This document shows, piece by piece, positions 5,213-21,935 of a stretch of 64,000 nt of DNA. Location of the stretch: contig DATMML010000042.1 in NCBI GenBank assembly GCA_035570235.1, positions 1-64,000 of the forward strand, written 5' to 3'. How positions within the stretch are numbered: position 1 is the first letter of the stretch; every line of letters begins with the position of its first letter. The DNA comes from Vicinamibacteria bacterium (GTDB lineage Bacteria; Acidobacteriota; Vicinamibacteria; Fen-336). The notes beneath the pieces were generated by a model, which had not been told where the DNA came from, did no database searches, and saw only the letters and a list, made by a program, of their open reading frames with translations. A program made the position numbers and the translations under genes.

Positions 5213-5548
5213 GTGGTCAAGCCAATTCGCTGGATTGGACCCTCGCTGAACGATCTGAGGGCGTTTCCGGAGGACGCGTGACGCATGGCGGGATTCGAGC
5301 TTCGGAGGGTCCAGCAGGGGCTTCAGCCCACCGACTGGAAGCCGATGCCCAACGTGGGCACCGGTCTCGAAGAGATTCGAATCGGCACCGGGCAAGAGCA
5401 CCGGGTCTTCTACGTTGCCCGCTTCGAGGAATGCGTCTACGTCTTGCACGCCTTCGAGAAGCGGTCTCGGAAGACTCCTGCCACGGAGATTGACATAGCG
5501 CGCGATCGGCTGCGTGAGGTGCTGGCGACGAGGCGGAGGCCACGATGA
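5213..5548 (+). pseudogene. HigB/RelE-like toxin interrupted by an in-frame TGA
   Basis: From GTG 5213 the frame reads VKPIRWIGPSLNDLRAFPED as in phage Gp49/HigB-like toxins, then meets TGA at 5279-5281, and resumes directly as RMAGFELRRVQQGLQPTDW through GTGLEEIRIGTGQEHRVFYV to the true stop. The TGA stands where these toxins usually have arginine; one C-to-T change (CGA to TGA) explains it. Translation could restart at ATG 5285, giving an 87-residue protein without its first helix. The family acts as a ribosome-dependent mRNA interferase; this copy is probably inactive or weakened. It overlaps the antitoxin start by 4 nt. Confidence 0.8.
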
Positions 5549-5856
5549 AGCAGAAGGCAAAGCCTAGAGTGACTCGCTCCAGCGGAAACGTGTTTCGGGA
5601 TCTCGGGTTCCCTCCCGACAAGGCGGAGCACCTCCTGGTGCGTGCCGACCTCATGATCCGGCTCGAAAGGGAGCTCGACTCCCGTAGCTTTAAGCAAGCT
5701 CAGGCCGCCAAGCTTCTTGGAATCACTCAGCCACGAGTCAGCGACTTGCTCCGCGGCCGCGTCGAACTCTTCAGCGCCGATGCTCTCATCGACATGCTGG
5801 CTCGGCTCGGGATCAAGGTCCGTATCGTCGCCTCGACACGGAGGAGAGTCGCGTAG
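5545..5856 (+). CDS. HigA/XRE family antitoxin
   Basis: A 103-residue protein with a helix-turn-helix at residues about 50-75 (KQAQAAKLLGITQPRVSDLL), the form seen in HigA-type antitoxins that follow Gp49-like toxins. It should neutralise the upstream toxin and repress the shared promoter. The ATG overlaps the toxin stop (ATGA). It is intact even though the toxin frame is interrupted, as expected if loss of the toxin came first. Confidence 0.85.
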   Translation: MKQKAKPRVTRSSGNVFRDLGFPPDKAEHLLVRADLMIRLERELDSRSFKQAQAAKLLGITQPRVSDLLRGRVELFSADALIDMLARLGIKVRIVASTRRRVA

Positions 5857-7044: not shown

Positions 7045-8691
7045 GTGGCTGCCGATACAGATGCCTTCCCGCAACTCAGCGGCGCCGAACTGGCGACGTT
7101 GGGGCAGCTCGGTGTTCGGCGAGCGGTCGGGGCGGGCGAGTACCTGTACCGGGAGAGCGACCCCGGTTACGATTTCTACGTCGTCCTTTCCGGCGCCGTC
7201 GAAATCATCGTCAAGTCTGAGGGTAAGGAACGCGTCATCGCCCGCCACGGAGCCGACCGGTTCCTTGGCGAGTTGAATCTCCTGACCGGCCAGCGCGTGT
7301 TCGTCTCGGCCCGGGTTGCCGAGGCCGGCGAAGTGATCGCCGTTCCGCGTGATGTGCTCAGGCGACTGATGGCCACGGACGCGAGTCTGAGCGACAAGAT
7401 CCTGGCCGCTTTCCTCGCTCGCCGTGCGATTCTGATGAGTGGCGCCGCCTCGGCGATTCGCCTAATTGGATCGCGGTTCTCACCTGACTTCGGCCGCGTT
7501 CGCGAGTTCCTGGTCCGCAGTCATATCCCGCACGAGTGGCTGGACCCGGACGCTGACCGAGAAGTCGAGCGCCTTCTCCGGGAGTTCAATATCGCCCCCC
7601 AGGACTTGCCGGTCGTGATCGCCACGGGCGCGGTGCTGCGCCGCCCGACCCCGAGTGCTCTAGCCGACTACCTCGGGCTGACGGTCGGAAAACTGCCGGA
7701 CCGCTGCTTCGATCTGATCGTCGTGGGCGCCGGTCCGGCTGGGCTCGCGGCAGCAGTGTACGGCGCCTCGGAGGGACTACGCACGCTCGTCCTCGAGATG
7801 GTCGCCGTCGGTGGCCAGGCGGGGTCCAGCTCAAGGATTGAAAACTACCTGGGCTTCCCGACTGGCATCTCTGGGGGGGACCTCACGCAGCGGGCAACGG
7901 TCCAAGCCCAGAAGTTCGGCGCATCTCTCAACAGCCCGTGCGCGGCGGTATCGCTGCGGGAGGAGGCCGGCCATCTCGTACTCCGCTTATCCGACGGCGC
8001 CGATGTCCCGGGTCGGGCGGTGATCGTCGCCACCGGAGCGCGCTACCGGAGGCTCGATGCCGTCGGGCTCGAGCAGTTCGAGTCCCGTGGCGTGTACTAC
8101 GCCGCGACCGAGTTGGAGGCCCGGTCGTGCGCGGGGTCGCCTGTGGTGGTCGCCGGGGGCGGCAACTCCGCTGGACAGGCCACGCTGTTTCTAGCCACTG
8201 CGGCGAGCGCTGTCACCCTCGTGATCCGGGGACCGGACCTCGCGGCAAGCATGTCTCGCTACCTCGTCGATCGGATCGAAGCCGACAAGCGGATCGTCGT
8301 CCGGCGAAACACCAGGATCGTGGCGCTCGAGGGTGACCAAACTCTGACCGGAGTGCGGGTCAGCGGGCCCGATGGCGAGGAAAAGCTCGCCAGCACCGCC
8401 TTGTTCTCGTTCATCGGCGCTGACCCCGCCTCGGATTGGTTGTCGGGCTTCGTCGCGCTTGACGATAACGGATTCGTGCTCACCGACCGATCCCTCGAGC
8501 GCAAGCACCTCGATGGGCGTTGGGAAACGCTCGGACGCCCCCCGCTGCCCTTCGAGGCCAGCCACCCGGGGTTGTTCGCCGTCGGCGACGTCCGCTCCGG
8601 ATCGACCAAACGAGTCGCGGCCGCGGTCGGCGAAGGCTCGGCCGCCGTTCGCTCGGTCCACGCCTACTTGGCATTCGATCGTCATGCCTGA
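7045..8691 (+). CDS. cNMP-binding domain plus thioredoxin-reductase-like flavoprotein
   Basis: A 548-residue fusion. Residues about 10-125 form a cyclic-nucleotide-binding domain (YLYRESDPGYDFYVVLSG, then FLGELNLLTGQR). A glutaredoxin-like stretch follows (about 145-225). The C-terminal part is a thioredoxin-reductase fold with FAD motif DLIVVGAGPAGLAAAVYGAS, NADPH motif VVAGGGNSAGQATLF, and a terminal FAD motif FAVGDVRSGSTKR. The redox CxxC of thioredoxin reductase is absent: the position reads YYAATELEA (about 350-358). It therefore cannot pass electrons through that disulfide; the acceptor is unknown. GTG start, 11 nt after the crotonase gene. Confidence 0.85.
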   Translation: MAADTDAFPQLSGAELATLGQLGVRRAVGAGEYLYRESDPGYDFYVVLSGAVEIIVKSEGKERVIARHGADRFLGELNLLTGQRVFVSARVAEAGEVIAVPRDVLRRLMATDASLSDKILAAFLARRAILMSGAASAIRLIGSRFSPDFGRVREFLVRSHIPHEWLDPDADREVERLLREFNIAPQDLPVVIATGAVLRRPTPSALADYLGLTVGKLPDRCFDLIVVGAGPAGLAAAVYGASEGLRTLVLEMVAVGGQAGSSSRIENYLGFPTGISGGDLTQRATVQAQKFGASLNSPCAAVSLREEAGHLVLRLSDGADVPGRAVIVATGARYRRLDAVGLEQFESRGVYYAATELEARSCAGSPVVVAGGGNSAGQATLFLATAASAVTLVIRGPDLAASMSRYLVDRIEADKRIVVRRNTRIVALEGDQTLTGVRVSGPDGEEKLASTALFSFIGADPASDWLSGFVALDDNGFVLTDRSLERKHLDGRWETLGRPPLPFEASHPGLFAVGDVRSGSTKRVAAAVGEGSAAVRSVHAYLAFDRHA

Positions 8692-8927
8692 TTACGACGC
8701 GCGAGCCGCCCGGCGCAGGAGGATCTAGACATGGCGCCGCGCGTAACGACGACTCATCGCGGTAGGTCGCCTCGTTAGCGCAGCGAGCCGACCATGGAAA
8801 TGGCATTCACGGGGTCAGGGGTTCGATCCCGATCTACTGCGGTGGCGCCCCCGCGTTCTGCGCGGCCTTTTCGATGAGAGAAGCAACCGCCGCCGGCTAC
8901 GACACGTAAACCGCGCGGCTATCGGAC

Positions 8928-9527
8928 CTACTTGAGCAGCTCTCCCGCACGCGCTATTAGATCCTTCTTTAGCTCGTCCTGGATGGGCTTCTCCCCCAGC
9001 CAAATGCCGAACACCGAGGCCGCAAAGGCCTTGTCCTTGATGGGAACCTTGTTGAGGCCCGCCACCTTGACCTCCAGCGCGCCCGCGGGGGTCAGATGGA
9101 ACACGTACTCCTGCCCGTTCTTGGTGTCGCTGAAGTAACCCAAGAGGAGGTCAACTTTCGCGGCGTTGGCGCCCTTCAACGCGTCGCGGAAAGCGTCCCG
9201 AACCTGATCCGTGCTCACGTCACGAACGAACTTGAGCACCATCGCCTTCTCGAAGTCGCCCGAGACGAGAGCCTGGTAGAAGGCGGGTGAATTCGCCTGC
9301 CCCTTGTAGGCGGCGAGGGGCCCCGCCAGGGCGGAATCGGCCACATAGAGGCCCGCCGCGTAGACCTTGACTCTCCCCATCATCTTGCTGCGCACGCCCA
9401 TCCCGAGCAGAGATGTGGGCCCCATCTTGGGCGCGAATCTCACTCCGCTTCGGGGCTCCACGATCTCCTGAGCCACGGCCGTCCCGACGAGACTTCCCGC
9501 GAGCAAAACGGTCACGATTGATCTCAT
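8928..9527 (-). CDS. Secreted chalcone isomerase-like fold protein
   Basis: A 199-residue protein with a signal peptide (MRSIVTVLLAGSLVGTAVAQ) and a chalcone-isomerase-like domain, recognisable by GVRSKMMGRVKVYAAGLYVA and a central helix pair ending in KVPIKDKAFAASVFGIWLG. Bacterial members are periplasmic or lipoprotein paralogues without proven isomerase activity; ligand binding such as fatty acids is the usual suggestion. ATG 9527 is chosen for the signal peptide; GTG 9545 is possible. A TAACAT box ends 8 nt before the ATG. Confidence 0.75.
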   Translation of the reverse strand: MRSIVTVLLAGSLVGTAVAQEIVEPRSGVRFAPKMGPTSLLGMGVRSKMMGRVKVYAAGLYVADSALAGPLAAYKGQANSPAFYQALVSGDFEKAMVLKFVRDVSTDQVRDAFRDALKGANAAKVDLLLGYFSDTKNGQEYVFHLTPAGALEVKVAGLNKVPIKDKAFAASVFGIWLGEKPIQDELKKDLIARAGELLK

Positions 9528-9641
9528 GGCGAGGGATGTTACCACTGAGCAGGGGAGGAAGACGCGGCCAGGATCAACGCCGGCTGCGCTCCGCAGGCAA
9601 CCGCCCGGTGAGGATCGGAGAGGCGTGTTAGGCTCCCCTAA

Positions 9642-10595
9642 ATGATTCTTGACGAGCTCCTGTCGAAGCGTCTCCTGATTCTTTCCGGAAAGGGCGGCGT
9701 GGGCAAGAGCGCGGTGGGCACGGCCTTGGCTCTGACCGCGTGCGACCGTGCCAAACGCGTGCTCATGGTTGAGGTGGGTGCGTCCGTGGAGGCGGCTCGC
9801 TACCTAGGCGCACGGCCCGCAGGCGCGCAGGCCACCGAAGTGAGGCCCGGCCTCTTCACCGTTAACCTGGACCCGGGCGGTGTGCTCGACGAGTACGTCC
9901 GGCAGGTGGTGAAGATCCAGCTCTTGGTGCACCGAATCCTGGAGAACCCGGTCTACCGCCGCTTCGTCTCCGCCGCCCCCGGCTTGCGCGAGCTGATGGT
10001 GCTCGGGAAGCTCATGGTGTTGGAAGAGGCTCGCGACCGCTGGTCGCGGCGGCCCCTCTACGATCTGATCATCCTCGACGCTCCCGCCACCGGCCACGGT
10101 CTCTCTTTCCTCAAGGTTCCTTTGGCCGCGTCAGAGGCCATCCCCGTCGGCCCCGTGGGTCACAATGCCCGGCGCATCCTCCAGCTTTTGCGAGACCCTC
10201 GCCGCACCGGCCTGGCCATCGTGGCCACGCCCGAGGAGATGGCGGTGGTGGAGGCGCTGCAGTTCCACCGACAGGTGGCGAGCGAGGTCGGCATAGCCAC
10301 GAGCGCGGTCATTCTGAACGCTTGCCATGAGAGGAGGCTGGGGGAGGCCCAGGAGAAGGAGGTACGGCGGCTCGTCGCTCAGGGTGCGCACGGACGGCTG
10401 GCGGGGAGGGTGAGCCTTGCCGCCGCCCTGCGGTCTGGCCAGCGGCACATCCGCCGACGGAAGCTCACCCGCTTCTACCAAACCCGGTTGCGGAAGGCTC
10501 TCGACCTGCCCCTCGTCTGCCTGCCCTACCTACCGTGTGAGGAGCTCGGTCCGGCCGAGGTTCGCCTGCTGGCGGACCGCCTCGAGGTCTCGTGA
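9642..10595 (+). CDS. ArsA/Get3-type ATPase, first of three
   Basis: A 317-residue P-loop ATPase with the deviant Walker A of the ArsA/Get3/MinD class, GKGGVGKSAVGTALAL (residues about 16-31, signature Lys before GVGK). The switch II region reads LIILDAPATGHGLSFLKVP. The usual ArsA switch I (DPAHSL) is replaced by MVEVGASVEAARYLG, so it may be a divergent regulatory partner. No arsenite-binding cysteine cluster is seen and no ars genes lie nearby. It overlaps the next gene by 4 nt (GTGA). A TAGGCT box ends 7 nt before the ATG. Confidence 0.88.
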   Translation: MILDELLSKRLLILSGKGGVGKSAVGTALALTACDRAKRVLMVEVGASVEAARYLGARPAGAQATEVRPGLFTVNLDPGGVLDEYVRQVVKIQLLVHRILENPVYRRFVSAAPGLRELMVLGKLMVLEEARDRWSRRPLYDLIILDAPATGHGLSFLKVPLAASEAIPVGPVGHNARRILQLLRDPRRTGLAIVATPEEMAVVEALQFHRQVASEVGIATSAVILNACHERRLGEAQEKEVRRLVAQGAHGRLAGRVSLAAALRSGQRHIRRRKLTRFYQTRLRKALDLPLVCLPYLPCEELGPAEVRLLADRLEVS

Positions 10596-11767
10596 CGGGC
10601 CGGCACGGAGCGAGCCCGGCGGATGCCCTGGCCAGCGAACTCCAGGCCCGGCGGATCGTTGTCGTCTGCGGCTCGGGGGGCGTCGGCAAGACGACCACCG
10701 CCGCCGCGCTTGGTTTGCGGGCGGCGCTTTGTGGCCGCCGCGTGCTGGTCTGCACGATCGACCCCTCCCGGCGGTTGGCCACCAGCCTCGGCCTCCAGCA
10801 GCTCTCCGGCCGTCCCCGCGCCCTGGACCTCGCCCGTTTCCACCCCCTGCCCGGGGGTTCACTCTCCGCGATGGTTCTCGACACCAAGACCACATTCGAC
10901 GCTCTCGTGGAAGCGTACGCGCCCAGCGAGGCCGACCGGCGCCGCATCCTGGGGAACCGCTTTTACCGGCAGATCTCGGCCGCGCTCGCCGGTAGCCACG
11001 AGTACATGGCGATGGAGAAGCTCCTGGAACTGTCCGGGGACAAGCGCTTTCAGCTTGTGGTGCTGGACACGCCCCCCACCCGGCACGCCCTAGACTTCCT
11101 CGAGGCTCCCGACCGGCTCATGAGCTTCCTCGATACCAGCATCCTGCGCTGGTTCCTAAGGCCCTACTTTGTGGCCGGTAAGTTGACGATCAAGGTGGCC
11201 ACCCGAACGGGGGCCACGGCCCTCAAGCTGGTCGACCGCTTCCTCGGCCTGCAGTTCCTCCGGGATCTCTCGGAGTTTTTCCTCGCCTTCGGGGGTATGT
11301 ACGACGGGTTCAAGGACCGGGCCGCGCGCGTGCACGCCCTGCTGCGGGACGAGGCCTCGGGGTTTGTGTTGGTGGCCGGCCCCACTCGCCCCGCTCTCGA
11401 GGAGGCGCTCTATTTCCACGAGCGGCTTCGGGAAAAGAGGATGCCGTTCCTGGGCTTCATCGTGAACCGGGTCCATCCCGATCCCGGGCAGGAGATCGGG
11501 TCTGGGCCCCCCGACGCGGGCGGGGCGACGCGAGTCGACCCGAAGCTCGCCGAGGCCCTGCTCCAACTCTACCGCGATCAGCAAGGGGTGGCCCGGGTCC
11601 AGCACCGGGCCATTGCCCGCCTGGAGGTGGATACGGGAGAGCGCCCGATACTGGTCCCCGAGCTCGACCAGGACGTCCACGACCTGCGGGGTCTACGCGA
11701 AATGGGTGACGCGATGTTGGGGGAGCCCCCCGCGGACGGCCGAGCCCGGCGGCGGATATCTTCGTAA
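10592..11767 (+). CDS. ArsA/Get3-type ATPase, second of three
   Basis: A 391-residue member with Walker A CGSGGVGKTTTAAALGL near residue 30, switch I TIDPSRRLATSLGL and switch II VLDTPPTRHALDFLE. The first Walker residue is Ser rather than Lys (GSGGVGKT), a difference from both neighbours. It has a longer helical part (about 150-260) that in Get3 relatives forms the client- or partner-binding subdomain; here it contains an amphipathic, aromatic stretch (FLGLQFLRDLSEFFLAFGG). GTG start inside the upstream stop; 12 nt to the third ATPase. Confidence 0.88.
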   Translation: MTGRHGASPADALASELQARRIVVVCGSGGVGKTTTAAALGLRAALCGRRVLVCTIDPSRRLATSLGLQQLSGRPRALDLARFHPLPGGSLSAMVLDTKTTFDALVEAYAPSEADRRRILGNRFYRQISAALAGSHEYMAMEKLLELSGDKRFQLVVLDTPPTRHALDFLEAPDRLMSFLDTSILRWFLRPYFVAGKLTIKVATRTGATALKLVDRFLGLQFLRDLSEFFLAFGGMYDGFKDRAARVHALLRDEASGFVLVAGPTRPALEEALYFHERLREKRMPFLGFIVNRVHPDPGQEIGSGPPDAGGATRVDPKLAEALLQLYRDQQGVARVQHRAIARLEVDTGERPILVPELDQDVHDLRGLREMGDAMLGEPPADGRARRRISS

Positions 11768-11779
11768 GATTAAGAAGAG

Positions 11780-12955
11780 ATGCGCATCATCCTCTACTCG
11801 GGCAAGGGGGGCGTGGGCAAGACCAGCCTGTCGGCCTCCACCGCTCTCCGCGCCGCCGGGCTGGGACACCGGACCCTTGTCGTCTCCACGGACGCCGCCC
11901 ACAGCCTGGCCGATGCCCTCGAGCAAGAGATTGGCCCCACCCCTACCCCCCTCGCTCCCAAGCTAGAGGGGCTGGAGGTGGACGTGAACCATGAGCTCGC
12001 AAATCGCTGGGGGGTGATCCACGAGTTCCTGACGCGCTTCATGACCTTCCGGGGTGTGGAGGAGGCGGTAGCGGAGGAGATCGCCATCCTGCCCGGCATG
12101 GAAGAGCTGTTCAGCCTGCTCAAAGTCAAGGACTACGCGGAGAGTGGCGCTTACGACGTGATCGTGATCGACTGCGCCCCCACCGGAGACACCCTCCGCA
12201 TGCTGGGCATCCCCGAGATCCTGAACTTCTACTTCGCGCGCATCTTCCCCATCCAGCGCAAGGTCGTCCAAACCGTGCGGCCGGTGGCCCAGCGCATGAC
12301 GGACATGCCCATCCCCTCCGACGAGGTCTTCGGCGCTGTCAAGTCGCTGTACCAGCAGCTCGAGGGCATGGGGCCCTTGCTTCAGGACCCGCGCCGAAGT
12401 TCGATCCGGATTGTTCTCAACCCCGAGAAGATGGTGATCAGCGAGTCGCAGCGACTCTACACCTATCTCAACCTCTTCGGCTTCCCGGTGGACGCCATCA
12501 TCGCCAACCGGGTGCTGCCGGATCAAGCGCGCTCTCCCTACTTCGACCGCTGGTTCGGGATCCAGGCCGGGCACCTCGCGGCTGCCCGCCAGGCCTTCGA
12601 CCCCCTCCCCTTCTTCCAGGCCCCCCTGTTCGACCGTGAAGTGGTGGGCGCGGCCCTCCTCGACGAGTTCGCCCGACGCGTGTTCGGCGACACCGACCCC
12701 ACGGCCGTTCTCTACCAGGAGCGGCCGATGGAGGTGAAGAAGGAAGGCAAGGGCTACGCGCTCTACATTCGCCTGCCCTTTGTCGAGAGGGACCGGATTC
12801 AAGTCTGGACCCGGGGTGACGAGCTCGTCGTTCAGGTGGACAATCAGAAGCGACACCTCATGCTCCCGCGGACGTTGGCCTCGCGCCGGCTGCTGGGCGC
12901 CGCCTTCACCGAGCAGCGGCTGCGGGTGGCCTTCGGTGGGAAGGAGGACGCGTGA
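11780..12955 (+). CDS. ArsA/Get3-type ATPase with C-terminal HSP20-like domain, third of three
   Basis: A 391-residue protein, the most canonical of the trio: Walker A SGKGGVGKTSLSASTAL, switch I VSTDAAHSLADALE, switch II VIDCAPTGDTLRML. Residues about 315-391 form a small beta-sandwich of the ArsA/HSP20-like kind (YALYIRLPFVERDRIQVWTR, ending RRLLGAAFTEQRLRVAF), known from bacterial and chloroplast Get3-like proteins. The family can hold hydrophobic clients; the client here is unknown. Its stop overlaps the small downstream gene (GTGA). Confidence 0.9.
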   Translation: MRIILYSGKGGVGKTSLSASTALRAAGLGHRTLVVSTDAAHSLADALEQEIGPTPTPLAPKLEGLEVDVNHELANRWGVIHEFLTRFMTFRGVEEAVAEEIAILPGMEELFSLLKVKDYAESGAYDVIVIDCAPTGDTLRMLGIPEILNFYFARIFPIQRKVVQTVRPVAQRMTDMPIPSDEVFGAVKSLYQQLEGMGPLLQDPRRSSIRIVLNPEKMVISESQRLYTYLNLFGFPVDAIIANRVLPDQARSPYFDRWFGIQAGHLAAARQAFDPLPFFQAPLFDREVVGAALLDEFARRVFGDTDPTAVLYQERPMEVKKEGKGYALYIRLPFVERDRIQVWTRGDELVVQVDNQKRHLMLPRTLASRRLLGAAFTEQRLRVAFGGKEDA

Positions 12956-13164
12956 GCCGAGCCGATTCGAGCCCGAAGAAGGCGTGCTGCCTGATCTCGG
13001 AGATGCTGGAGGAAGCGGGCCTTGACCGCGAACGGGCGCGCCGCCTTCGGCGTCAGGTGTTGGAGGGAATTGTCGTTCTATGCCAGTGGCAGCTCGAGCG
13101 CATGGAAAGGCCGCCCGCCTCCTCCGCCTCCGGGCGGAAGACCCGCAAGGTCGCCGTGGAGTGA
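12952..13164 (+). CDS. Small helical protein linked to the ArsA-type trio
   Basis: A 70-residue, charged, mostly helical protein with a single clear block LDRERARRLRRQVLEGIVVL followed by CQWQLERME, and a basic tail. No known domain is recognised. Its GTG is embedded in the stop of the third ATPase, so it is translationally coupled. The length and coupling suggest a partner or adaptor of the ATPases, which is inference only. Confidence 0.7.
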   Translation: MSRADSSPKKACCLISEMLEEAGLDRERARRLRRQVLEGIVVLCQWQLERMERPPASSASGRKTRKVAVE

Positions 13165-13474
13165 CCATTCGTCCCCTCTGCTGAATCCCTGTGCAATCCG
13201 CTCTCGGGGCCGTCAGTCGTGGGTTCCCGCACGTCGATCCACAGCTTTTCCGCGACGTCTGTGGAAAAGCTTGGCTCGGGGGCGGTCTCCCGCCCGGAAG
13301 CACTCCCCAAGGACTCTCCACCCAGCCCCCACTCGAGCCGGGTTCGCCCGGTGGAGTGGACCTGGGGCCCGGGCCCCGACAGGGCTAACCGCTCGCACCG
13401 CGGTCTCGTCGCGTCGATGAACCTCTGGAACCCGGCGAGGGCTGGGCGCGCCGGTGCAGTCCCGAGTCGAGAGG
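13165..13474. other. Intergenic region without recognised gene
   Basis: This 310-nt stretch lies between convergent genes (small protein on plus, JAMM protease on minus). It holds the dyad listed at 13243-13271. No convincing reading frame or T-tract terminator was seen. Confidence 0.5.
13243..13271. repeat. Inverted repeat AGCTTTTCC-N11-GGAAAAGCT
   Basis: Perfect 9-bp arms (13243-13251 and 13263-13271) around an 11-nt spacer. The right arm is preceded by TGTG, so TGTGGAAAA (13260 onward) is one base off a DnaA-box-like 9-mer. It lacks a T-tract, so it is not an ordinary terminator. Function unknown. Confidence 0.5.
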
Positions 13475-14020
13475 TTAGCGGGCGATCTGGAGCGGTCGGG
13501 CATCAAACCCGATCGCGTAGGGGCAGAGGATGGGTGCACGCCGGGGCTCGCCGGCTGCGGTCACGGTGTAGGCCGTCAGGCGGAAATAGTGCTCGTCCGT
13601 GGTGCCGGAAAGCGACCCGTCGTCGTTGTAGTTCCAGGGCACCTCACGGAGCCGGTCGTTCACGCTCACGATGATGTAGACGTTCTCGGAGGTCATCCCC
13701 TGAAGGTCCGTCTCGCTGGGGTGGTTGGCGGCACGGCTGTACCCCCACATGGTGTGGGAGTGGAAATCCCCAATGACGGAGAGCTGGGGGATGTTTTGAA
13801 GGAAACGCTCGATCCTCTTGTGGGCTCGAGGGTTGCTGACCACGCCCTTGTGCCGGCGGCCCGCGGTCTGGAAGGGCAGGGCGTGCTCAACGATGAACGT
13901 CTCCTCAAGGCCCTTGCGGTCGCGGTAACCGATGAGCAGCCCGAAGCACTCGCGCTTGTAGACCTCGACCGCGGAGATGAGGAGGCCCCAGAAAGCGTTT
14001 TGTGAGACGTAGGCGGTCAT
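13475..14020 (-). CDS. JAMM/MPN domain metalloprotease
   Basis: A 181-residue Mov34/MPN/PAD-1-type protein. The catalytic set is visible: Glu24 in YKRECFGLLIG, His87 and His89 in GDFHSHTMWGY, Ser102 and Asp105 in HPSETD. The spacing between the HxH and SxxD parts is longer than in the canonical JAMM motif. Such enzymes cleave isopeptide or C-terminal peptide bonds; no ubiquitin-like or E1-like partner is nearby. ATG 14020 is used because a promoter (14064-14092) lies downstream of the other in-frame ATG at 14113. Confidence 0.85.
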   Translation of the reverse strand: MTAYVSQNAFWGLLISAVEVYKRECFGLLIGYRDRKGLEETFIVEHALPFQTAGRRHKGVVSNPRAHKRIERFLQNIPQLSVIGDFHSHTMWGYSRAANHPSETDLQGMTSENVYIIVSVNDRLREVPWNYNDDGSLSGTTDEHYFRLTAYTVTAAGEPRRAPILCPYAIGFDARPLQIAR

Positions 14021-14063
14021 GGGTGTGGGTGAGGGAGTTTCGGAGGACGCGATACCAAGAACA

Positions 14064-14092
14064 ATTCTAGGGGGCCTCCCTCCTGCTGTCAA
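14064..14092 (-). promoter_or_regulatory. Promoter of the JAMM protease gene
   Basis: On the minus strand TTGACA (14092-14087) and TAGAAT (14069-14064) with a 17-bp spacer. Box sequences are the same as in the rpsA promoter (57197-57226). It implies a leader of about 35-40 nt to ATG 14020. Confidence 0.75.
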
Positions 14093-14106
14093 CGAGTGTC
14101 TGAGAT

Positions 14107-14135
14107 TTGACATAACCTGATCAAAATAGGATACT
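14107..14135 (+). promoter_or_regulatory. Promoter of the beta-barrel gene
   Basis: TTGACA (14107-14112), 17-bp spacer, GATACT (14130-14135). The expected transcription start is within 1-2 nt of ATG 14144, so a leaderless message is likely. It is back-to-back with the JAMM promoter; the two -35 boxes are 14 bp apart. Confidence 0.7.
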
Positions 14136-14143
14136 TAGCACAT

Positions 14144-14644
14144 ATGAGCCACTCAGACCGCCGCTATCACCGCACCGTCCGAGCCCTGCTCATCGCTGCC
14201 CTGCTCTTGGCGTCCCGGCCAGGGGGGGCGGCCGAGCTCGCCGCTTTCGTATCCGGCGCCACGCCGGGCCCCAACTGGAACGGCGGCGGGTTCGGTGTGT
14301 CTCTCACCATTACCCTCCTCAACCTGGTGGGGCTCGAGCTGGAAGGGGCCCGACAGGGAGGGGTCGTGACCGATTCGAGCATGCTGAGCGCTTCCAGCCG
14401 AGCGTTCCTCGCCCCTCCCATCGGTCGCTTCGTTCCCTACGCCGGCCTTGCCGTCGGCGCCTACAAGCAGACGCTCGCCTCGCACGACCAATGGGGGACG
14501 GTGTCGGGGGTCTTCGTCGGGGCCCGGATCAAGCTACCCCTCGGCATCCTCATCAAGGGCGAGTACGAATGGGTCAACCTCCCGAACGACGCCCTCATGA
14601 AGATGGATGCCCGTTATTACGGGGGCGTGGGCATCAGCTTCTGA
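14144..14644 (+). CDS. Outer-membrane beta-barrel protein, small
   Basis: A 166-residue protein with a signal peptide (RALLIAALLLASRPGGAAEL) followed by alternating amphipathic strands (GFGVSLTITLLNLVGLELEG, then FVPYAGLAVGAYKQ, and GVFVGARIKLPLGILIKGEY). The last residue is Phe (YYGGVGISF), the usual outer-membrane insertion signal. Size suits an 8-strand barrel. Role unknown. No Shine-Dalgarno sequence precedes the ATG, consistent with the leaderless promoter. Confidence 0.75.
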   Translation: MSHSDRRYHRTVRALLIAALLLASRPGGAAELAAFVSGATPGPNWNGGGFGVSLTITLLNLVGLELEGARQGGVVTDSSMLSASSRAFLAPPIGRFVPYAGLAVGAYKQTLASHDQWGTVSGVFVGARIKLPLGILIKGEYEWVNLPNDALMKMDARYYGGVGISF

Positions 14645-14692
14645 ACCCTCCGCCCGGGGAGCCGGGCAGCCCCGTGCTAAACTCATCGGCCC

Positions 14693-15934
14693 ATGGTGTT
14701 CCTCAACTACACCACGATGCAGATGACGGCCAAGATCGTGTACTACGGTCCTGGCCTCTGCGGGAAGACCACCAACCTCCAGTGGATCCACCTCAAGACC
14801 GCCCCCCGTTCCCGGGGCGAGATGGTGAGCCTGGAGACCGAAACCGACCGAACCCTCTTCTTCGACCTCCTCCCTCTCGACGTGGGCGTGATCGGGGCCA
14901 TGAAAGTCAGGTTGCAGCTCTATACCGTCCCCGGGCAGGTCTTTTATAACGCCACCAGAAGGCTGGTCCTCAAGGGCGTGGACGGAGTCGTTTTCGTGGC
15001 GGACAGCCAAACCGCGGCCATGGACACCAACCTCGAGTCGCTCAAGAACCTGCACGAGAACCTGGCCGAGCTCGGCCTCTCCATCGAACAGGTCCCCATC
15101 GTCTTTCAATACAACAAGCGCGACATACGCAACATCCTGCCCGTCGACAAACTGCACGAAGCGCTGAACCCGGGGGGAGTCCCGGAATTCGAAGCCGCGG
15201 CCATCCACGGGGTGGGCGTCTTCGAGACCCTAAAGGGAATCTCGCGTCTGGGCCTCGCTGCTATCCGGAGGAAGATCGCCGAAGACAACCGCAAGCAGGA
15301 GGCCGTTCAGCCCGTGGGCGTGGCCACGGGCAGGATTCCGAGGGGGGCGCCTGTGCCTGCGCCGCTGGCGATTTCGTTTTCCGCGCCTGCTCCTTCTGCC
15401 CCCGCTGCATCCTCGGCTCCCGCGGCCCCCATGGCCCCGGCCGCCAGCGCCACCAGCGCTGTCGACGCGGCCACCGCTGGCGATGATCTACTGGCTGGAC
15501 TCGTCGCGGACTCCCCCGAGGTCAAGGAAGTGGAAGTCGAGTTCGCGGAGGAGGACACCGACAAGCACGCGGTACGGCCGGTGGCCACTCGGGACCTCCT
15601 TGACATCCATCGCGAGCTGGAGAAACTCCGGACCCTCGCCAACACCGGCCGCCGGAAGGCGTCTCCCCCCGCCCATGAGAAGGATGTCGAGCGGCTCTTC
15701 CAGGACTTGATGGTCTCCGAGCGGGACTCCCGGCAGGAGGTGAAGCGCAAGGTGAGCGTGGACGTGCCGAATGGCCTCCTCAAGGGCGCCTCCGACCTGC
15801 GCGTTCACCTGGCCTTCCAGCGGGACGGGAAGGAGGAAGTGGTGGAGGACGCGGTCACCGTCAAGTTGATGGGCAACCGTCGCCTGGAGCGGCTCATCCT
15901 CCACCTCGAACTGGACCTTAAGGGGAAGGGCTAG
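14693..15934 (+). CDS. MglA-type small GTPase with long C-terminal extension
   Basis: Residues 1-195 are a Ras-like GTPase of the MglA family: P-loop YYGPGLCGKTTNLQW, TETDRTLFFDLLPLDVG, switch II TVPGQVFYNATRR, base-recognition NKRD in VFQYNKRDIRN. Plain MglA proteins stop near 195 residues; here about 215 more follow: an Ala/Pro-rich linker (about 205-265) and a charged helical C-terminal domain (residues about 290-413). MglA sets cell polarity in Myxococcus; no MglB gene is adjacent. It is convergent with a glycosyltransferase, the two stops sharing CTAG. Confidence 0.9.
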   Translation: MVFLNYTTMQMTAKIVYYGPGLCGKTTNLQWIHLKTAPRSRGEMVSLETETDRTLFFDLLPLDVGVIGAMKVRLQLYTVPGQVFYNATRRLVLKGVDGVVFVADSQTAAMDTNLESLKNLHENLAELGLSIEQVPIVFQYNKRDIRNILPVDKLHEALNPGGVPEFEAAAIHGVGVFETLKGISRLGLAAIRRKIAEDNRKQEAVQPVGVATGRIPRGAPVPAPLAISFSAPAPSAPAASSAPAAPMAPAASATSAVDAATAGDDLLAGLVADSPEVKEVEVEFAEEDTDKHAVRPVATRDLLDIHRELEKLRTLANTGRRKASPPAHEKDVERLFQDLMVSERDSRQEVKRKVSVDVPNGLLKGASDLRVHLAFQRDGKEEVVEDAVTVKLMGNRRLERLILHLELDLKGKG

Positions 15935-19982: not shown

Positions 19983-20276
19983 ATGTCCATGGAAGCACTG
20001 GGGATGGTGGAGACCAAGGGACTCGTCGGCTCCATCGAAGCCGCCGATGCCATGGTCAAAGCCGCCAATGTTGTCCTCGTCGGGAAGGAATACATCGGGG
20101 CCGGCTACGTCACGGTGCTCGTGCGGGGCGACGTGGGAGCGGTCAAGGCGGCCACCGACGCCGGCGCGGCCGCCGCTCGCCGGGTAGGGGAACTGGTGTC
20201 GGTGCATGTGATTCCGCGCCCCCACCAGGAGGTGGAGAAGGTCCTCCCCGGCGGCGCCGACGCCAAGAAGGCTTAG
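19983..20276 (+). CDS. Bacterial microcompartment hexameric shell protein (BMC-H)
   Basis: A 97-residue single BMC domain: [20 protein letters not shown] at the start, then [40 protein letters not shown] and the terminal strand [20 protein letters not shown]. This is the PduA/EutM/CcmK-type protein that forms hexamers tiling the shell of a protein organelle. Length is normal. GGGAGG precedes the ATG. It is followed 18 nt later by an acylating aldehyde dehydrogenase, the common core enzyme of metabolosomes. No pentamer (BMC-P) gene is in the window. Confidence 0.93.
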
Positions 20277-20294
20277 CCTCTTCCCCCGCCGTCC

Positions 20295-21935
20295 ATGACG
20301 ATCCAGGACCCGGACCTCCTCTCCATCCAGCAGGCGCGGAGCTTGGCCGCGAAAGCGCGCGAGGCCCAGCGGGCGCTGGCCGAGTTCTCGCAGGAGAAAA
20401 TCGACCGCGTCGTGGACGCCATGGCCGAGGCCAGCCGGGGCGCAGCCGAGCAGCTGGCCCGCCTGGCCCACGAGGAAACTGGCTTCGGCAACGTCAAGGA
20501 CAAGACGACCAAGAACCTTTTCTCGGCGGTGGATGTGCACGCCTACATCCGGCCCCTGCGAACGGTCGGCATCCTGCGCGAGGACCCCGTGGCCCGGGTG
20601 GTGGAGATTGCCGAGCCCATGGGTGTGGTGGCCGCGATCATCCCCTCCACCAACCCCACCTCGACCGCGATCTTCAAGGCCCTCATCTCCATCAAGGCCC
20701 GCGACGCGGTCGTCCTGAGCCCACACCCTTCCGCTCGGCGCTGCATCCAGGAGACGGTCAAGGTCATGCACGGGGCGGCGGTGGCCGCGGGGCTGCCCCC
20801 CGACGCCCTCTCCTGCATGACGGACGTGACCCTCGAGGGGACCCAGGAGCTGATGCGCACCCGGGCCACGGGGGTGATCCTGGCCACGGGAGGGATCGGC
20901 CTCGTCCGCGCCGCCTACTCCTCCGGCAAGCCCGCCTACGGGGTGGGTCCGGGCAATGTCCCCGCCTACATCGAGAAGACCGCCGACGTGCCCAAGGCGG
21001 TGCGGGACGTGATCAACGGCAAGACCTTCGACTACGGCACCCTCTGCTCGTCCGAGCAGTCGCTCGTCTGCGACGAGGCGATCCGGGACCAGGTCATCGC
21101 GGAGGTGAAGAAAAACGGCGGGTACTTCCTGAACGAGGCGGAAACGGCCGCGGTCTCCCGGGTGGTGGTCACCCCCCAGCGTCTGGCCAATCCCGAGATC
21201 GTGGGCCGACCCGCCCCCTACATCGCCGAGAAGGCGGGCTTCGCGGTCCCCCCCGCTACTCGTGTCCTCCTGGCCCCCCTCGCGGGGGTGGGCCGTGACT
21301 TCCCGCTCTCGATCGAGAAGCTGTCACCGGTGCTGGCCTTCTATGTGGTCAAGGACTGGCACGAGGGCTGCGAGCGCTGCCTCCAACTCCTGCGCTACGG
21401 AGGAACCGGCCACACGCTGGGAATCCACAGCGGAGACGACGCGGTAATCCGGGAGTTCGCCTTCAAGAAGCCGGTTTTCCGGATCGTGGCCAACACCCAG
21501 ACCTCGATGGGGGCCACCGGCTATACGACCGGCCTCGCCCCCTCCATGAGCCTCGGTTGCGGGGCCTACGCCGGCAACATCACCTCCGACAACATCACGC
21601 CCCTCCACCTCATCAACATAAAGCGCCTGGCCTACGAGCGGCCGCGCGGCGCCTCCGCCAAGACCCCGCCTGCCTTGATCGACAAGGTGGCCGCCTTCGT
21701 CGAGGGCCGCCTCGGTTCGACGCCGGCGCCGCCCCCAACCCCACCCCTGACCACCCGTGCCCCTGCCCCTGATGCCCTCCTCGACTTCGTGTCCGAGGAC
21801 GATGTCCGGCGGGCTCTACGGGAAGGCCGGGTCTTGCGCCTGGCCCCCCGAGCCATTGTGACCCCCGCCGCCCGGGACGCTGCCTCCGGGACCCAGGTTC
21901 TCCTCGCGCCGGAAGGCCCGCCCGCCAAGTCCTGA
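20295..21935 (+). CDS. CoA-acylating aldehyde dehydrogenase, microcompartment-associated
   Basis: A 546-residue enzyme of the EutE/PduP/AdhE-N type that converts an aldehyde, CoA and NAD to acyl-CoA. Visible: cofactor region [20 protein letters not shown], catalytic Cys in [13 protein letters not shown], and [17 protein letters not shown] near the end of the core. Core enzymes have about 460-480 residues; here a Pro-rich linker (about 475-495) leads to a C-terminal segment [20 protein letters not shown] and a short tail, which could be a cargo-targeting peptide or small domain. It is paired with the shell gene. Confidence 0.92.

Follow-up and report, generated by a model that had tools for sequence, protein, structure and literature searches.

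A BagA/BagB-like ATPase pair joined to a Get3d-type ATPase and its small associated protein in a Vicinamibacteria bacterium

The 64,000-nucleotide stretch of DNA analyzed here (a Vicinamibacteria bacterium, contig DATMML010000042.1, positions 1 to 64,000 of the forward strand; hereafter the window, contig 42 of a 5.7 Mb genome that is 99.6% complete) carries, at 9642-13164, three ATPase genes of the ArsA/Get3 superfamily and a gene for a protein of 70 amino acids (aa), all in tight tandem on the + strand. The question raised by this locus is whether the four products work as a single hetero-oligomeric machine, as an earlier note on the sequence had proposed. The arrangement described there was confirmed by the coordinates and by the PF02374 profile, which scored above its cut-off in all three ATPases (E = 4e-22, 7e-23 and 2e-86 for P0001, P0002 and P0003, respectively): the first two open reading frames (ORFs) overlap by 4 nt (GTGA), a 12-nt gap separates ORF 2 from ORF 3, and ORFs 3 and 4 overlap by 4 nt (GTGA). 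Among the three ATPases only P0003 has the C-terminal HSP20-like domain which the note had also pointed out (PF17886, ArsA_HSP20, E = 4e-20). No fourth superfamily member was found in the genome, where the other PF02374 matches were short P-loop matches.

The comparison of gene order among relatives showed that the cluster consists of two modules joined in one lineage, a BagA/BagB-like pair (BagAB) and a Get3d-type ATPase, with the small protein belonging to the Get3d module. Within the family and order to which the window belongs, all 12 loci on sufficiently long contigs have the gene order BagA-BagB-Get3d-small, and a thirteenth four-gene locus was found outside its class (G044), which gives 13 of 13 relatives from two Acidobacteriota classes for the survey that had been suggested. 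At all 21 other Acidobacteriota loci sampled, BagA-BagB stands alone with no Get3d gene adjoining, and Get3d with the small gene occurs without BagAB in many other genomes. Because both pairs stand alone elsewhere, we read the cluster as two modules, and the proposal of one machine built of three ATPases was not sustained. Two known kinds of ATPase are here arranged in a new way, together with a new small family that is tied strictly to Get3d. In the tree, the BagB proteins of the four-gene clusters, together with that of G108, were split from most others by a well supported branch.

The first module consists of ORF 1 (9642..10595, P0001, 317 aa) and ORF 2 (10592..11767, P0002, 391 aa). The best NCBIfam match of P0001 was BagA (E = 2e-29; 103 bits against an equivalog cut-off of 400), and it matched PDB 6bs3_A (Rv3679) with E = 6e-18; P0002 matched BagB (E = 4e-101; 339 bits against a cut-off of 521) and aligned end to end with PDB 6bs3_B (Rv3680, E = 1e-71). 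Because both score under the NCBIfam cut-offs, the two proteins are classed as relatives of BagA and BagB rather than as the same equivalogs. BagA/BagB are Rv3679/Rv3680 of M. tuberculosis (Hu 2019 and Whitaker 2020, cited in PMC10597346), and the PDB entries 6bs3-6bs5 for that pair contain both chains. The window pair shares with it the tandem A-B order and a BagB without the signature lysine and with the switch-I Asp, and differs in that a Get3d module adjoins it in the gene order.

P0001 has the P-loop GKGGVGKS with the signature Lys, VEVGAS at switch I, where Gly replaces Asp, and DAPATGHG at switch II, while P0002 has GSGGVGKT without the signature Lys, TIDPSRR and DTPPTRHA, respectively. 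The earlier note was right that the three ATPases differ at such defining sites, but GSGGVGKT and the absence of the usual switch I turned out to be family hallmarks and not oddities, because the BagB P-loop reads G[A/S/P/G]GGVGKT in 35 of 35 loci, the window included, and the BagA switch-I Asp is variable. The latter is Gly in the window and Ala, Glu or Asp in relatives within the four-gene lineage, and is retained (DP) in most BagAB pairs outside it; the BagB switch-I segments displayed are all TIDP or TFDP. The signature lysine (GKGG) is present in BagA and absent from BagB in all 35 BagA-BagB pairs. In the Get3/ArsA mechanism, the signature Lys acts in trans and the switch-I Asp activates water. 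Because BagA gives the trans Lys that BagB lacks, and BagB holds the Asp that this BagA has lost, these motifs suggest that ORFs 1 and 2 probably encode a heterodimer with one competent composite ATP site. A role in anti-phage defence was also considered and rejected, as it was supported only by a weak match, at the superfamily level, between ORF 2 and mads_8 (E = 1e-6).

The second module starts with ORF 3 (11780..12955, P0003, 391 aa), which is a Get3d-type chaperone ATPase as judged from its motifs, its domains and the model of an orthologue. P0003 has a complete GKGGVGKT P-loop, switch I STDAAHSLADAL and switch II DCAPTGDT; it lacks the CXXC zinc motif, its single Cys lies in switch II (DCAPTG), and its alpha-crystallin domain spans residues about 320-388 (PF17886 match at residues 324-385; domain and linker at 12695..12952, +). 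The AlphaFold2 (AF2) model of the orthologue at locus L068 matched NosGet3d (8egk, 3igf) and AtGet3d (8elf) over 394-426 columns, and its alpha-crystallin domain, modelled as a seven-strand sandwich, matched NosGet3d and small heat-shock proteins, including 3vqm and 4m5t. P0003 thus resembles the Get3d proteins of PMC10248533 in combining ArsA_ATPase with a C-terminal alpha-crystallin domain, in having no CXXC and in its fold. Its switch I is intact, as in green-bacterial Get3d, whereas that of NosGet3d is degenerate, and it adjoins a dedicated small gene, a neighbour of a kind not described for Get3d. While the photosynthesis-linked Get3d group is emphasised in PMC10248533, no bchL was found in the genome of the window or in 15 relatives, and because this genome lacks bchL its Get3d has no tie to photosynthesis, so that Get3d with intact catalytic motifs is found outside photosynthetic bacteria. 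The same paper notes a need for new Get3d partners, describes the function of the alpha-crystallin domain as unclear and places this domain at the Get4 site. The clients would be tail-anchored or other hydrophobic segments, a class that is taken from published Get3d binding data rather than from the window.

The small protein encoded by ORF 4 (12952..13164, +, P0004) consists of a CC motif, a helical hairpin with a CxWQL core, a basic linker and the C-terminal tail RKVAVE, and it matched no family in Pfam, NCBIfam or PADLOC. It has orthologues in 13 relatives, most of the close set being 46-65% identical, the differences at the three codon positions are 0.37/0.26/0.47, and the other frames hold stops; these results show the 70-aa ORF to be a real gene under coding constraint. 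Seventeen residues are invariant in the close orthologues (C12, C13, S16, E17, L19, E20, E21, G23, R30, Q35, L37, G39, C44, W46, Q47, L48 and R50). The P0004 profile reached G044 as well as G060 and G072, genomes of another family in which the small gene follows Get3d without BagAB, and downstream of 30 alpha-crystallin Get3 genes many further, divergent versions were found. A family profile built from 11 divergent members and run over 9,954 ORFs (1.04 Mb) gave 48 matches, about ten of them outside the seed and all adjoining an alpha-crystallin Get3 gene, with no match beside the 21 BagAB-only loci or beside five ArsA-like genes without the domain. After removal of duplicates, a small gene was present at 39 of the 52 alpha-crystallin Get3 genes sampled (37 by the rule of the script, plus L042 and L053, which it missed owing to their long stop-to-stop frames). 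It lies mostly downstream of Get3, overlapping it or within about 100 nt, and directly upstream in L134, L136 and L138; it accompanies Get3d without BagAB in L086, L087, L135, L139, L140, L142, L143, L151, L153, L154, L159, L160 and others. The Cys pair is limited to part of the family, many members having no CC, and the widespread features are the tail and a helix pattern, roughly HLxxAxxExLxAxRSxxDxxIxxLE.

Some loci showed irregular small genes. At L136/L180 (G283:C12), Get3d is preceded by two small ORFs; one carries the family helix but lacks an end motif, and the other is a borderline match (E = 0.03) and contains KIEI. The two are possibly the halves of a split partner or copies of a duplicated one. 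At L174 (G393:C151), two near-identical small genes on a short contig each follow an alpha-crystallin-domain match, which is either a duplication or an assembly repeat. A weak family match (L088:9535-9705, G304:C125, E = 2e-4) inside a 362-aa frame, in a genome without an ArsA_HSP20 match, is possibly due to chance.

The tail is the feature that may connect the small protein with the alpha-crystallin domain. Of 39 small-family members, 35 end with [KRQHE][VI]x[VIL] in their last few residues, a pattern shared by 1.2% of 2,838 control ORFs and 6% of tails after shuffling; among the exceptions, one member ends in RLTVE, and in another an extension comes after KIPVE. In small heat-shock proteins (sHSPs), the C-terminal IXI/V tail, also as a separate peptide, binds the beta4-beta8 groove of the alpha-crystallin domain (PMC3638399; 3vqm, 4m5t). 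P0004 is similar in that a basic linker leads to [VI]x[VI] at the very end of the chain and the proposed partner has an alpha-crystallin domain, and different in that the tail sits on a separate small helical protein and the docking is proposed, with mixed AF2 evidence. At L155 (G314:C27), where Get3d has no small neighbour, the ATPase itself has a C-terminal extension of roughly 40 residues ending in TRIEVQE, which looks like a built-in version of this tail.

At L068 the Get3d stop TAG directly precedes the in-frame ATG of the small gene, and reading this TAG as Gly gave a tethered pair for modelling, purely as a device and with no claim of read-through. In this model (26 rows, unpaired alignment), Get3d folded well, the body of the small protein had pLDDT <50, and its last residues reached about 66 and formed a strand/bridge. 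A second run with the alpha-crystallin domain and the small protein defined the hairpin better (helices 98-109 and 114-140). The modelling with the small protein that the earlier note had suggested therefore agreed with the idea of a docked tail in the full-length model and did not reproduce it in the short one, and the models give a mixed picture.

The search was also extended to other phyla, represented by one actinobacterial and one fusobacterial chromosome. In Nonomuraea (L164), Get3d is followed directly by a DUF5304 protein (L164:7246-7683) of similar layout, ending in HIDLN. DUF5304 (PF17230) shares with the small family its place after an alpha-crystallin Get3, a Cys motif, an HLxxAxxE helix and a short hydrophobic-x-hydrophobic C-terminus, and differs by a longer N-terminus; no PF17230 match was found in P0004. 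Our literature search found no mention of DUF5304, and this neighbourhood is a candidate functional context for it, the small family offering a first lead. In the same region, a START-like gene precedes Get3 and a ROK-kinase-like gene follows the DUF5304 gene. In Fusobacterium vincentii (L165:4814-7167), two Get3d genes lie in tandem and overlap, each encoding an alpha-crystallin domain, an arrangement which suggests a Get3d heterodimer.

Based on these results, we consider it fairly probable that the locus combines a BagAB module with a Get3d ATPase whose small adaptor or regulator is recruited to the alpha-crystallin domain, most likely by its tail. In the proposed mechanism, ORFs 1 and 2 would supply a BagA/BagB-like heterodimer with its one working site, and ORFs 3 and 4 a homodimeric Get3d-type ATPase/holdase for hydrophobic segments with its dedicated partner, a helical hairpin with a CC motif conserved in the lineage of the window, a flexible basic linker and a [VI]x[VI] end. 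This partner would be recruited to the alpha-crystallin domain, most likely through the tail acting in trans in the manner of the IXI tail of sHSPs, and the docked hairpin would then regulate Get3d or pass on clients. The partner role foreseen in the earlier note was supported, with the small protein assigned to Get3d; that it is a functional partner of Get3d is highly probable, and that it binds Get3d physically is likely. Docking by the tail is plausible, and we put it forward tentatively. The small protein might play a part like that of Get4/Get5 in the GET pathway, as a possible adaptor or regulator of a Get3 ATPase, while having no sequence relation to them; no Get1/Get2-like receptor was seen beside the cluster. 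More speculatively, bacterial Get3d ATPases may have a small partner of their own, fast-evolving and hitherto undescribed, that clips to the alpha-crystallin domain in trans by a C-terminal [VI]x[VI] and thereby recruits a helical regulatory or client-handover module, with DUF5304 as its actinobacterial counterpart. If true, this would account for the presence of the domain in Get3d, and a family that, as sampled, occurs near Get3d only and carries such a tail speaks to both points left open in PMC10248533.

Several alternatives have to be weighed against this reading. One complex of BagA, BagB, Get3d and the small protein for targeting or assembly would explain the tight order conserved in 14 genomes, the co-occurrence of BagB and Get3d in 12 of 396 genomes vs 3.6 expected (not corrected for kinship), and the lack of both in G004, a 98% complete genome of the same family; set against the loci described above where each pair stands by itself, such a complex is improbable. 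Because the co-occurrence exceeds expectation, a shared process of BagB and Get3d may still exist, and work of BagAB in the same pathway as Get3d within the four-gene lineage is slightly less likely than not. An arsenite or thiol-metalloid detoxification system, in which the CC...C small protein would act like the metallochaperone ArsD and supply ArsA-like pump ATPases, draws on the invariant CC pair and third Cys of the close family and on the superfamily of the ATPases. Neither Acr3 nor ArsB was found in the genome, however, or near the cluster in relatives, the single Cys of P0003 is in switch II, many small-family members lack the CC pair, and P0004 has no ArsD match in Pfam. Arsenite export with an ArsD-like chaperone was rejected on the absence of the pumps and is very hard to credit; the earlier note had correctly seen no ars genes adjoining the cluster, and the linkage to arsenite pumps that it raised as a counter-test was not found.

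The small gene might also be a mere historical neighbour of Get3d, kept by operon inheritance with an unrelated function, as physical linkage by itself is no proof of interaction; yet the linkage holds across about 40-77% Get3d identity, in both gene orders and with or without BagAB, and the protein shows coding constraint, which makes this explanation quite unlikely. More weight is due to binding at the ATPase or client face of Get3d, like Get4 or a client, with the tail as an incidental end strand: in the close family, with its 17 invariant residues, conservation is highest in the hairpin, and AF2 left the tail off the isolated alpha-crystallin domain. Across the phylum, though, the tail motif outlasts the CC motif as well as most helix sequence, and the family is strictly confined to Get3 with an alpha-crystallin domain, and we regard this alternative as rather unlikely. 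Tail docking and a dedicated partner have evidence against them as well. Which strand pairs with the tail could not be read in the read-through model, and in the second run the tail was unpaired at pLDDT about 52. The profile of the small family scored the Nonomuraea DUF5304 protein at 1.6 bits, which is not significant. Thirteen of the 52 sampled alpha-crystallin Get3 genes have no small neighbour, nor has either Fusobacterium Get3d gene, so the fold class does not require the partner. The members of the small family, moreover, share descent, and the counts are not independent.

A promoter/terminator scan of 8700-14200 gave nothing clear at the cluster. On the 3' side, genes for an outer-membrane beta-barrel-like protein and for an MglA-like GTPase (14144-15934, +) are kept in all eight close-family loci of sufficient length, and at some loci a gene with a JAB domain (at 13475-14113 of the window) sits between them and the cluster. 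Upstream, a gene at 7045-8691 (+) fuses a cyclic-nucleotide-binding domain to a thioredoxin-reductase-like pyridine nucleotide oxidoreductase, and at 5285-5856 (+) a Gp49-like (HigB-type) toxin gene overlaps an XRE-like antitoxin gene as in a typical toxin-antitoxin pair. Further downstream, at 19983-21935 (+), a bacterial microcompartment shell protein gene (BMC, E = 2e-28) lies beside an aldehyde-dehydrogenase-like gene, a possible microcompartment locus.

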